A stretch of 64,000 nt of DNA from Bacteroides sp. M10 (lineage in GTDB: Bacteria > Bacteroidota > Bacteroidia > Bacteroidales > Bacteroidaceae): the NCBI RefSeq assembly GCF_014334015.1, contig NZ_CP060488.1, positions 1 through 64,000 on the forward strand. Direction: 5' to 3'. Positions 28,070-59,965 of this stretch are shown piece after piece (position 1 is the first letter of the stretch; each line of letters opens with the position of its first letter). The notes below the pieces were generated by a model. That model was not told the DNA's origin. It was given only the letters and a program-made list of their open reading frames with translations, and did no database searches. The translations under genes were made by a program, and so were the position numbers.

Positions 28070-30226
28070 TTATTCTTCTGTCTGCTTAGCCTCAAAGTCT
28101 TTCATCAACTTATCCTGAACATCTGCCGGAACAAGCTCATAACTAGAGAACTTCATAATAAACGAAGCACGTCCGCCGGTGAGTGAGCTAAGAGCTGTAG
28201 AGTAGGACGACATTTCTTTCAAAGGAACTTTAGCAACCAGTTTCTCAAAACCTTTTTCGCTACTCATACCCATAATCATGGCACGACGTCCCTGAAGATC
28301 TCCCATCACATCTCCCATCCTATCAGACGGAACAAACACTTCTACATCATAAATCGGTTCCAGAATTTTCGGACCGGCGTTCTTGAAGGCTTCACTAAAG
28401 GCATTACGTCCGGCAAGCATAAAGGAGATTTCATTAGAATCTACCGGGTGCATCTTACCATCGTAAACAATGACACGCACGTCACGAGCATACGAACCCG
28501 TCAACGGACCTTGCTCCATACGAGACATAATACCTTTCATAATAGCAGGCAGGAAGCGTGCATCGATAGAACCACCGACGATACTGTTGATAAACACCAG
28601 TTTACCACCCCATTCCAATGGTATTTCTTCCGTACCTCTCACGGTAATCTTAAATTCCTGTCCATTGAACTTATACGTATCGGGCACAGGCATACCTTCT
28701 TTATAAGGTTCTACAATCAGGTGAACTTCACCAAACTGACCGGCACCACCGGATTGTTTCTTATGACGATAGTCGGCGCGGGCGGCTTTTGTAATCGTTT
28801 CACGATACGGAATCTTCGGTTCTTCGTACTTCACCGGAAGTTTTTCGTTGTTTTCCAAACGCCATTTCAATGTACGAAGATGGAATTCTCCCTGTCCGTG
28901 TACCAAAGTCTGTTTCAATTCCTTTGACTGTTCGATCACCCAGGTAGGATCTTCTTCACGCATACGATTCAGAATACTCATCATCTTTTCCACATCCGCT
29001 TCATTCACCGGCTTGATGGCACGGGTATATTTAGAATTCGGATATTTGATAAAGTTGAATTTATAGTCGCAATCCTTACCGTTCAGCGTATTACCGGTTT
29101 TCACATCTTTCAGTTTCACAGCAGCACCGATATCACCGGCTTGCAGTTCTTCCACCTTGACACGGTTACCACCGGCTACCACATAAATTTGCGCAATACG
29201 TTCCTTCGAACCACGGTCGGCATTCAGTAAATCGTCCCCTTCATGAACTTTACCGCTCATTACTTTGAAATAGGAAACTTCACCGATATGCGGCTCCACA
29301 CTGGTCTTGAAGAAATAAAGGGATTCCGGTCCGTTAGTATCCGGAGCCACTTCTTTACCTTCAGTATTCTGTACCTTCGGCATTTCAGAAACAAAAGGAA
29401 CAACGTTACCCAAGAATTCCATCAAGCGGCGAACGCCCATATCCTTACCTCCACAAACACAGAATACAGGGAACATACCTCTGGCGATCAATCCCTTACG
29501 GATACCTTCGCGCATTTCATCTTCTGTAAGAGAATCTTGTTCGAAGAATTTCTCCATCAGATTTTCATCATTCTCGGCAGCAGCTTCTACCAATGCTTTG
29601 TGCATCTCCATAGCCTTATCCATTTCTTCTGCCGGAATATCTTCGATGGTCGGAGCCCCTCCTTCGGGTTTCCACGAATATTTCTTCATCAACAGCACGT
29701 CGATCAGCGCATTAAAGCCCGGGCCGGTAGCTATTGGATATTGGATAGGAACAACCTTAGAGCCATAAGCCTCTTTCAGCTGTTCGAGGATATTATCATA
29801 ATCGCATTTTTCATTATCAAGCTGGTTGACTAGAAAAATAACAGGTTTATTCAGCTTTTCTGTATAACGGAAGTGATTTTGTGTACCGACTTCGACGCCG
29901 TATTGGCCATTAAGAAGAATGATTGCTGTGTCGGTCACATTTAGTGCAGTTACTGTACTGCCTACGAAGTCGTCCGATCCCGGACAGTCAATAATATTAA
30001 GTTTTTTGTTATTCCATTCTACATGGAGAACGGTGGAGAAAACGGAGTAACCATACTCTTGTTCAACAGGGAAATAATCGCTAACAGTATTCTTTGCGGC
30101 AACAGATCCGCGACGTTTTATAACACCACTCTCGAAAAGCATCGCTTCCACGAGAGTGGTTTTCCCAGAGCCAGAACTTCCCAACAAGGCAATGTTCTTG
30201 ATTTCATTAGTCTGATATACTTTCAT
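28070..30226 (-). CDS. fusA2: EF-G2, elongation factor G paralogue with altered GTPase motifs
   Basis: EF-G-like translation factor of 718 aa with full five-domain architecture. The P-loop is GSSGSGKTT (16-24) and G4 is NQLD. Switch I reads EQEYGYSVFS where EF-G has EQERGITI, and switch II reads D80-CPGS-DDF, so the catalytic His of DTPGHVDF is Ser84. These changes predict little or no GTP hydrolysis. This matches what I recall of B. thetaiotaomicron EF-G2, reported to support translation without GTPase activity and to be induced in carbon limitation by the regulator Cur. It stands alone, divergent from hemW. Confidence 0.9.
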   Translation of the reverse strand: MKVYQTNEIKNIALLGSSGSGKTTLVEAMLFESGVIKRRGSVAAKNTVSDYFPVEQEYGYSVFSTVLHVEWNNKKLNIIDCPGSDDFVGSTVTALNVTDTAIILLNGQYGVEVGTQNHFRYTEKLNKPVIFLVNQLDNEKCDYDNILEQLKEAYGSKVVPIQYPIATGPGFNALIDVLLMKKYSWKPEGGAPTIEDIPAEEMDKAMEMHKALVEAAAENDENLMEKFFEQDSLTEDEMREGIRKGLIARGMFPVFCVCGGKDMGVRRLMEFLGNVVPFVSEMPKVQNTEGKEVAPDTNGPESLYFFKTSVEPHIGEVSYFKVMSGKVHEGDDLLNADRGSKERIAQIYVVAGGNRVKVEELQAGDIGAAVKLKDVKTGNTLNGKDCDYKFNFIKYPNSKYTRAIKPVNEADVEKMMSILNRMREEDPTWVIEQSKELKQTLVHGQGEFHLRTLKWRLENNEKLPVKYEEPKIPYRETITKAARADYRHKKQSGGAGQFGEVHLIVEPYKEGMPVPDTYKFNGQEFKITVRGTEEIPLEWGGKLVFINSIVGGSIDARFLPAIMKGIMSRMEQGPLTGSYARDVRVIVYDGKMHPVDSNEISFMLAGRNAFSEAFKNAGPKILEPIYDVEVFVPSDRMGDVMGDLQGRRAMIMGMSSEKGFEKLVAKVPLKEMSSYSTALSSLTGGRASFIMKFSSYELVPADVQDKLMKDFEAKQTEE

Positions 30227-30460
30227 AATATATAAGATTTTAGTAATTACTCAGTATGTTTCTCACATACCATTAATTTTGTGATGCGCAAATTAGGGAT
30301 TAATTGGGGGAAAAGCAACACTTATGACGGTGTTACTAAACAATGTTATGTAACACATCTTTAACATAAACATTTTTTGCTTGCTCATAATTTAATTTCT
30401 ATACGAACCACCATTCAATAGTATATATGCATATAATATTTAGACTGCACAAACGGATTG
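30227..30460 (-). promoter_or_regulatory. Upstream control region of fusA2
   Basis: A -7-like CTAATTTG lies on the minus strand at 30288-30295, giving a leader of roughly 55 bases. It includes TCACA (30263-30267) and TGTGA (30280-30284), 12 bases apart. Upstream of the -7 element is a cluster of TGTTA/TAACA half-sites at 30331, 30344-30355 (TGTTATGTAACA) and 30362-30366, a typical place for an activator such as Cur. No gene is seen. Confidence 0.4.
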
Positions 30461-30464
30461 TTCA

Positions 30465-30545
30465 ACACCCGGGTCTCAGGCATACCGACACCCGGGTGTT
30501 GATAGTGCTGACACCCGGGTGTCAATACCAATGAGACCCGGGTGT
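30465..30545. repeat. Array of four ACACCCGGGTGT palindromes with exact 23-bp period
   Basis: Units start at 30465 (ACACCCGGGTCT), 30488 and 30511 (both ACACCCGGGTGT) and 30534 (AGACCCGGGTGT), each 23 bases apart and separated by 11-base non-identical spacers. The two inner units are perfect 12-bp palindromes, and unit 3 extends to TGACACCCGGGTGTCA. The outer units are exact reverse complements of each other, so the units are arranged symmetrically about about 30505. The block is GC-rich in an AT-rich gap between divergent fusA2 and hemW. Function is unknown; an operator or iteron-like protein-binding array or a dispersed palindromic repeat are the main options. Confidence 0.9.
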
Positions 30546-30599
30546 CAGACAACTTATCTATGCAACGCCTCATAAGAATGATTTCAGTCAATAAGATTT

Positions 30600-30630
30600 T
30601 TTGTTATATCTGATAATAATCTTACTTTTA
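30600..30630 (+). promoter_or_regulatory. Promoter for hemW
   Basis: TTTG (30600-30603), 19 bases, then TACTTTTA (30623-30630), one base from consensus. It shows that the true start is ATG 30658 and not the TTG at 30601. Confidence 0.6.
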
Positions 30631-30657
30631 CAGCCACTAAACTCAAACGGCACAACT

Positions 30658-31788
30658 ATGGCAGGTATCTATCTTCATATTCCTTTTTGTAAAACACGGT
30701 GCATCTACTGCGATTTCTACTCAACCACCCGTAGCGAGCTCAAAACCCGTTATGTACGAGCACTTTGCCAGGAGTTAGCCATGCGGAAAGACTACCTGAA
30801 AGGAGAAGATATAGAAACCGTTTATTTCGGTGGCGGAACCCCGTCTCAATTGGAAAAAGAAGATTTCGAACAGATATTTGATACGATCCGGACACATTAC
30901 GGATTAAGCCATTGGCAGGAAATCACATTGGAAGCCAATCCCGACGATCTGACAAGTGAATATCTGAAAATGCTTTCTTCGCTCCCTTTCAATCGTATCA
31001 GCATGGGAATACAGACTTTTGACGATCCCACTCTCAAACTATTGAAACGTCGTCACAATGCCCGTACAGCTATCGAAGCTGTTCACAGATGTCGGGAAGC
31101 CGGTTTTCAAAATATAAGCATCGATCTCATCTACGGATTACCGGGAGAAACCAAAGAACGATGGGAGAATGATCTTCGTCAGGCTGTCAGTCTGAACGTG
31201 GAGCACATTTCCGCTTATCATCTGATTTACGAGGAAGATACACCTATATATAATATGTTAAAACAACATCAGATATCGGAGGTGGACGAAGATTCCAGTT
31301 TAGATTTTTTCACGTTACTGATAGAGCATCTGCAGAAAGCGGGATTTGAACATTATGAAATTTCGAATTTCTGCCGTCCGGGCAAGTACTCTCGTCACAA
31401 CAGTTCTTACTGGAAAGGAATACCTTATCTGGGGTGCGGACCGTCGGCACATTCTTTTGACGGGATGACACGGGAATGGAATGTTTCTTCCATCGATACA
31501 TATATAAAAGGTATAGAGGAAAACAACCGTGCTTTTGAAATAGAGTATCTGGACCAGACGACCCGCTACAATGAGTTTATTATCACTACCATACGTACTG
31601 TATGGGGAACACCTATAGAAAAGCTGAAACAGATGTTCGGCAATGAGATGTGGGAGTATTGCCAGAGAATGGCTGCGCCTTATCTGAAAAATGGGAAACT
31701 GGAAGAACACGATGGAGCCTTACGCTTGACTCGTGAAGGTATTTTCATCTCCGACAGTATAATGAGTGATTTACTTTGGGTAGATTAA
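30658..31788 (+). CDS. hemW: Radical SAM heme chaperone HemW
   Basis: HemN-related radical SAM protein of 376 aa, now regarded as a heme chaperone rather than coproporphyrinogen dehydrogenase. The motif CKTRCIYCDFYS supplies the CxxxCxxC cluster cysteines; VYFGGGTPSQL and TLEANPDDLT are family signatures; ISAYHLIYEEDTPIY and a C-terminal HemN_C domain follow. The form with an aromatic in place of the fourth HemN cysteine (CDF) is the HemW type. The start is set by the upstream promoter and by homology of MAGIYLHIPFC. The ECF sigma gene follows after 19 bases. Confidence 0.94.
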   Translation: MAGIYLHIPFCKTRCIYCDFYSTTRSELKTRYVRALCQELAMRKDYLKGEDIETVYFGGGTPSQLEKEDFEQIFDTIRTHYGLSHWQEITLEANPDDLTSEYLKMLSSLPFNRISMGIQTFDDPTLKLLKRRHNARTAIEAVHRCREAGFQNISIDLIYGLPGETKERWENDLRQAVSLNVEHISAYHLIYEEDTPIYNMLKQHQISEVDEDSSLDFFTLLIEHLQKAGFEHYEISNFCRPGKYSRHNSSYWKGIPYLGCGPSAHSFDGMTREWNVSSIDTYIKGIEENNRAFEIEYLDQTTRYNEFIITTIRTVWGTPIEKLKQMFGNEMWEYCQRMAAPYLKNGKLEEHDGALRLTREGIFISDSIMSDLLWVD

Positions 31789-59879: not shown

Positions 59880-59937
59880 CTAAAGCATAGCTTTAGGGAA
59901 TGAAAAGCATAGCTTTAGCCAGTCTAAAGCTATGCTC
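59880..59937. repeat. Clustered inverted repeat AGCATAGCTTTAG
   Basis: CTAAAGCATAGCTTTAG (59880-59896) contains the unit AGCATAGCTTTAG, repeated at 59906-59918 and inverted at 59924-59936 with a 5-base loop (CCAGT). The last two form a 13-bp perfect stem that can terminate either flanking convergent gene. The extra upstream copy would compete for pairing. Confidence 0.8.
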
Positions 59938-59965
59938 TTGAGAGTTAATAAGACATTTTTTCATA

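Follow-up and report, generated by a model that had tools for sequence, protein, structure and literature searches.

A dispersed 23-bp-pitch palindrome array between a fusA2-like gene and hemW in Bacteroides as a candidate target of an HU-fold protein

The window, a 64-kb stretch of Bacteroides DNA, carries a palindrome array between two divergent genes, a putative fusA2-like elongation factor G paralogue (718-aa ORF, 28070..30226, minus strand) and a putative hemW (30658..31788, plus strand). Both genes bear the names given in the preliminary description, and the 5' ends of both face the array. Based on the sequence and a motif scan, the array consists of four 12-bp units to which no strand is assigned. 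Unit 1 is ACACCCGGGTCT (30465..30476), units 2 and 3 are both the perfect palindrome ACACCCGGGTGT (30488..30499 and 30511..30522), and unit 4, which is also recovered by matrix score, is AGACCCGGGTGT (30534..30545), the reverse complement of unit 1. The preliminary description had reported unit starts at 30465, 30488, 30511 and 30534 with pitches of 23, 23 and 23 bp, complementary outer units, and three 11-bp spacers that all differ, and each of these points is exact in the sequence. Additionally, a TGCA dyad lies to the left of unit 1 (30446..30449) and another to the right of unit 4 (30561..30564), both unstranded. Because their dyads are placed exactly one further 23-bp step beyond the outer unit dyads, six dyads stand in register at this locus. 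Among 19 non-redundant xylanisolvens-type elements, 14 of the 38 ends have TGCA at this offset; the other lineages do not share this feature. The left arm (30446..30464) and right arm (30546..30564) of the element, again unstranded, are defined by arm complementarity across 83 non-redundant elements. With up to two mismatches, the array motif matches six times in the window, four of these matches being the array itself; in 100 shuffles the count averages 0.88 and never exceeds 4. Elsewhere in the window, a convergent gap at 59880-59940 contains another palindrome array, built of CTAAAGCATAGCTTTAG units at a 22-bp pitch.

Arrays of this type are dispersed through related genomes. Of 158 genomes in the genus, 34 contain the two-unit pattern ACCCGGGT-N15-ACCCGGGT, with 1 to 46 matches each (reversed control, 0); the pattern is also found in 27 of the 298 family genomes drawn, 26 of which belong to the genus and one of which lies outside it (G324). 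In the nearest genome (G001), arrays occur at about eight places, one of them a single unit. Among GTDB species, a three-unit pattern retrieved 107 stretches, mainly from Bacteroides, with some from Parabacteroides and a few odd MAGs and GC-rich matches; ten odd MAG or GC-rich matches were removed, and the remaining 97 loci and the window form the set of 98 arrays. The number of units is almost constant within a group when arrays of at least three exact units are counted, shorter arrays also occurring: the xylanisolvens group has four units in 25 of 26 loci, Bacteroides sp. 519 has five in 12 of 12, and Bacteroides sp. 51 has 33 arrays with four units, 6 with three and 1 with five. Two array dialects, CTGACACCCGGGTGTCAG and aaAGACCCGGGTGTttt, coexist within the genome of Bacteroides sp. 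51 (e.g. L065, L050). The array arms of Bacteroides sp. 519 (e.g. L059, L072, L118) show a second box, ATnCnAnTAGATTT, at steps of about 23 bp outside the palindromes, and a Verrucomicrobia MAG (L122, 7712-7884) carries eight CCACCCGGGTGG-like units at a 23-bp pitch with TTGACCCTTAA-like spacers.

By rough ORF calls, 76 of the 81 array loci with both neighbours called are intergenic. The 81 gaps comprise 26 convergent, 36 tandem and 14 divergent cases and 5 that overlap a rough ORF call. Convergent gaps are enriched relative to the other gaps of the same loci (26/81 versus 30/213; Fisher p = 3e-4). These orientations indicate that the copies are not promoter elements in general. A TAnnTTTG box faces inward in two families (12 in and 2 out among 50 arms; 6 in and 0 out among 24 arms), and promoters in the array arms were considered and set aside, with TAnnTTTG at -27/-28 in eight cases, six of them HU_rel leaders (described below). 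A role as a chromosome-terminus marker was also rejected; the positions in G001 seemed clustered, but their place relative to hemW, judged by eye, is inconstant elsewhere. Three PLSDB entries (NZ_OY725958.1, NZ_OY725948.1 and NZ_OY725909.1) are listed as plasmids of B. finegoldii TSDC17.2-1.1, and they look like chromosome pieces, carrying acetate kinase, radC and a gyrase/topoisomerase subunit. In a viral scan, one contig matched.

Orthologous gaps differ in their arrays. hemW is present in 77 of 79 genomes; of the 30 hemW loci fetched, 13 have a recognisable fusA2 start no more than 800 bp upstream. Among these 30 upstream regions, a multi-unit ACCCGGGT array occurs in one, Bacteroides sp. 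GM023 (G060), as four units with spacers unlike those of the window, and a single unit occurs in one, B. congonensis (G009), within a perfect palindrome; both belong to the 13 loci with fusA2 beside hemW. The hemW gap of G097, whose hemW is among the closest (93%), lacks a ACCCGGGT array, as do those of G157 and G005. The hemW gaps of G001, B. finegoldii (G016) and B. xylanisolvens (G156) instead contain a three-unit ACTTAAGT array with a 22-bp pitch. ACTTAAGT arrays are also dispersed, with matches at up to one mismatch in seven genomes and five places read in G156; at two mismatches the pattern is not above its control (13 of 79 genomes versus 15 for the reversed pattern). The ACTTAAGT arrays of L280, L279 and L281 end in near-perfect terminal inverted repeats, the longest being in L280 (CCTAATGAGTTTTCGTTTGA...). 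Similarly, the glycosyltransferase-radC gap turns over arrays as the fusA2-hemW gap does, with four units in G156, G028 and G016, two in G157, G015 and G001, none in G006 and G097, and a GTTTC...GAAAC array in G009, G002, G060 and G005.

To characterise the neighbours of the arrays, we clustered the 178 genes flanking the 98 arrays. The largest cluster, and the sole one found in more than two lineages, is HU_rel, whose profile and structure model fit the HU/IHF fold; the other clusters contain three genes at most. Four array-adjacent genes that were tested correspond to HU_rel (TIGR01201, with L055 just below the cut-off) and HU-HIG (PF18291). HU_rel adjoins only 12 of the 98 array loci, distributed over six lineages (Bacteroides and a Parabacteroides MAG), and seven of these 12 are probably one orthologous locus. 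Nevertheless, HU_rel makes up far more of the 178 neighbours (12) than chance would give, because 1.2 Mb of Bacteroides stretches chosen blind to arrays contain four HU_rel-like genes of at least 120 aa by the same profile. The start of HU_rel faces the array in 12 of 12 loci. In particular, the start lies 41-46 bp from the array at these 12 loci, and 41-47 bp separate the last unit from the ATG in all 16 distinct HU_rel genes, a geometry biased by the fact that most loci were fetched for their arrays. In 12 of the 16 leaders, a promoter-like TAnnTTTG box precedes the first unit by 26-28 bp. Relatives with a HU_rel leader array have additional copies elsewhere, ranging in number from a few to about 40.

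A less biased view was obtained with a DNA query of the HU_rel gene and its array, the array thus still being part of the query, against 16 genomes. The gene was found in 10, and an array or a variant of it lies upstream in 10 of 10. When the gene is compared with dispersed arrays, both are present in nine genomes, neither in five, the gene only in one and arrays only in one (one-sided p = 0.0076, from two-unit pattern counts). One genome of the class with neither (G006) carries a truncated HU_rel gene. In the gene-only case (G157), the leader and dispersed arrays have variant units, e.g. ACACCCGGATGT and AGATCCGGGTGT, and in the arrays-only case (G015) there is no DNA-level match to the HU_rel gene. 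This association is drawn from the genomes of relatives rather than from that of the window itself.

To assess constraint, we compared the HU_rel locus between the close and far species groups (20 pairs, 9 genomes). The units are 96% identical, the spacers 41% and the arms 55-64%, and no indel separates the groups within the array. The difference between units and spacers, together with the lack of indels, indicates constraint on the units and their pitch. Furthermore, the leader array scores best with the dispersed arrays of its own lineage in 11 of 12 tests, seven of which concern the same locus; L141, the one HU_rel partner seen in Bacteroides sp. 51 despite its two dialects, failed. A matrix built from the xylanisolvens HU_rel leader arrays of relatives scores each of the four units of the window at 25-28 bits, and the next-best site in the window reaches 5.7 bits.

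Because relatives carry them at a fixed distance before its gene, the arrays are probably landing sites of this HU-like protein. We therefore favour, with a probability of roughly 0.6, the reading that the HU_rel protein (HU/IHF fold, TIGR01201/PF18291) targets a dispersed cis element, of which the array of the window is one copy. Dimers of HU_rel would bind the ACCCGGGT palindromes side by side. Through the leader array the protein may tune its own gene, and elsewhere it may mark or organise other array-bearing gaps, that between fusA2 and hemW being one. The preliminary description had proposed a cooperative, multi-site protein-binding array; the fixed pitch, conserved units, freer spacers and fixed place before HU_rel agree with that proposal, and the binding and its cooperativity are the part that we infer. 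It had also raised the case of scattered copies with no link to genes, of which the scattering holds and the absence of a gene link does not, HU_rel genes being linked.

Another explanation is a non-coding mobile repeat, comparable to a BrickBuilt-type MITE, in which an inverted-repeat element spreads through gaps and serves no host function. The intergenic placement and dyad-symmetric arms accord with such an element, as do the patchy occurrence of arrays across orthologous gaps and the presence of different array families in one gap in different species. Moreover, G028 contains three blocks of about 265-280 bp around the array that are 95-98% identical at sites with unrelated flanks, and G156 and G001 hold one copy each; the gaps of the G028 copies are rearranged in relatives. 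These blocks end at a 23-bp site, TTCATTTC-TGCACC-GTTTTGAAT, which occurs one to eight times in seven of eight genomes (control, 0) and brackets non-coding segments. Segments flanked by TTCATTTC-N6-GTTTTGAAT were recorded in L317 (1501-1917), L303 (1501-2090), L306, L309, L296, L316 and L312, and long hairpin folds are found in the seven examined. In the same gap of G028 and G001, one such segment is shared and the next differs, as if cassettes had been exchanged. A site-specific cassette was rejected as the general carrier of arrays, the 23-bp site lying near only 2 of 89 array loci (L054 and L137) when six mismatches were allowed within 250 bp; at three mismatches it is absent from the window. 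The mobile-repeat explanation is nonetheless unlikely. Units that remain 96% identical at an exact pitch while spacers fall to 41% do not suggest neutral decay, the position before HU_rel is constant, and no mobiliser emerged from either search made. The Y1 transposase (PF01797), whose gene occurs in 19 of 79 genomes, is absent from array-rich G001, G004, G016, G021, G029, G145 and G149, and the IS5-type BrickBuilt terminal inverted repeat GAGACCWTTGCA lies near none of the 98 arrays (within 400 bp, one mismatch), compared with 4 of 604 control windows.

BrickBuilt is the nearest published element in kind, as far as the excerpted account describes it. That excerpt reports tandem 23-nt units in Porphyromonas gingivalis, always intergenic, with 19 copies in one genome, predicted long stem-loops, unit numbers that differ among strains, and promoter activity measured in E. 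coli (PMC4596501). The family of the window likewise has a 23-bp period in intergenic DNA. In the same excerpt, however, BrickBuilt has 1 to 22.8 units without spacers, carries IS5-type terminal inverted repeats and has no binding protein named for it (PMC4596501), whereas our arrays have spacers and lack such repeats in 98 of 98 cases. BrickBuilt as excerpted has a separate non-repetitive leader and tail; the window family shows dyad-symmetric arms and, in three genomes, the block of about 265 bp. REP/BIME elements with RAYT resemble our family as palindrome clusters in intergenic DNA, but the REPs described in one study are tagged GTAG or CGTC (PMC3733652), whereas the window family has an exact pitch and array-rich carriers without Y1; several such carriers led us to reject a RAYT/REP origin. 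The preliminary view that no such element had been described in Bacteroides is borne out by titles, among which no relevant one was found, but has to be qualified by this Porphyromonas relative in kind.

The array might alternatively act as RNA, with a long hairpin in its transcript serving to stabilise the mRNA or to bind a protein. The fold of the window element is very stable (z = -8.5 for the plus strand and -9.6 for the minus strand), and at HU_rel genes the array is preceded by a promoter-like box and followed by the start codon. In the 83 non-redundant elements, 48% of the positions in arms and outer spacers are Watson-Crick complementary about the central dyad at register 0, compared with about 20-32% at shifts of 1-6 bp, the range for the arms being 26-32%. 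Covariation is seen in the flanks adjoining the outermost units in three of the five families tested, and the ACTTAAGT array in the hemW gap of G028 has units 1 and 3 changed together and still complementary. In contrast, the spacer cores covary in none of the five families, so that a long global hairpin was rejected, although the dyad is real. Tandem gaps show no preference for the sense orientation (14 sense, 14 antisense, 1 tie). In the xylanisolvens group, a T-tract precedes and an A-tract follows the hairpin, the reverse of a terminator, and a terminator was thus excluded. No Rfam family exceeded its gathering score in the region 29900-31000 of the window; the best match was a plant miRNA model (37.9 bits versus a gathering score of 75), and such matches were taken for palindrome artefacts. 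On balance, an RNA element appears improbable.

A private operator or control region for the divergent fusA2 and hemW genes, favoured by the divergent gap and the four-unit array in the orthologous gap of Bacteroides sp. GM023, is very improbable, since the same array is scattered through relatives' genomes and, of 13 fusA2-hemW gaps, one contains a multi-unit array and one a single unit. The preliminary description had put forward such a control region, and had itself held scattered copies and absence from the fusA2-hemW gaps of close relatives to speak against it; we observed both, and this local reading is abandoned.

Dedicated proteins that bind sequence-marked sites scattered on the chromosome are familiar from MatP/matS and ParB/parS, and plasmid iterons, likewise recognised by a dedicated protein, repeat at about 22 bp, close to two helical turns. 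Our arrays differ from these systems in that the suspected binder is an HU-fold protein, whose paralogues seemingly have different palindromes. HU proteins show little preference for sequence when binding DNA, so that reading of a palindrome by HU_rel would be unusual. No description of a target or autoregulation of HU-HIG/HU_rel emerged from the literature searches made for one.

To extend the comparison to other HU_rel genes, we inspected their upstream regions. The HU_rel orthologues L279 and L284, both fetched for their array, stand behind ACTTAAGT arrays with a 22-bp pitch, and the longer HU-HIG proteins L346 and L400 stand behind other 22-bp palindrome arrays. No palindrome array was found upstream of L388, L426, L372 and L200, nor upstream of any of three canonical HU genes. 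In total, 4 of 8 other HU_rel genes pass the array threshold, compared with 16 of 350 control genes (p = 4e-4), the control hits (22/23-bp arrays) including L400 itself and one run of N; among genes from stretches that were not fetched for an array there (L346, L400, L388, L426 and L372), 2 of 5 have one. Based on these sequences, some other HU_rel paralogues seem to have arrays of their own, with different palindromes and a 22-bp pitch, which is suggestive but not settled. Several HU_rel proteins are present in Bacteroides; B. xylanisolvens XB1A encodes at least the three distinct ones met here (L134, L279 and L388). Strict searches near the arrays for other palindrome arrays gave almost nothing, and looser searches found some.

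The pitch itself is common in the intergenic DNA of these bacteria. In an array-blind sample of 1.2 Mb from seven Bacteroides genomes, one of which (G158) has no such repeats, 33 of 51 intergenic tandem repeats with a period of at least 15 have a period of 21-23, and 22 have exactly 22; in the coding DNA of the same sample, period 22 occurs in 1 of 39 tandem repeats. Two small samples from outside the genus each show period 21-23 in 3 of 5 repeats. A rank test ascribes greater palindromicity to units of period 21-23 than to others (Mann-Whitney p = 4e-4, three 44-bp repeats excluded). Taken singly, few units are significantly palindromic at p < 0.05 (7 of 33 versus 1 of 18 for other periods), and the rank test gives the clearer signal.

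A broader proposal, which we regard as tentative and in its full form doubtful, is that the HU_rel paralogues of Bacteroidaceae could be sequence-addressed chromatin proteins. Each would own dyad-symmetric palindrome arrays with a 22-23-bp pitch and would be autoregulated through a leader copy, while gaps would exchange arrays, in part within non-coding hairpin cassettes that have the 23-bp recombination-like site at their boundaries; one such address would be the array of the window. If clades and palindromes are indeed paired in this way, Bacteroides sp. 51, with its two dialects, would have a second HU_rel with a aaACACCCGGGTGTtt leader.

The pairing of arrays with HU_rel offers a way to learn what HU-like proteins do. 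If the preferred reading of the array as a HU_rel target is true, the target of this protein is visible in the sequence, chromosome-wide, which would define a regulon and make it possible to test directly whether proteins of the HU fold are able to read a palindrome. Moreover, HU_rel targets could explain part of the wide class of 21-23-bp repeats in the intergenic DNA of Bacteroidaceae.
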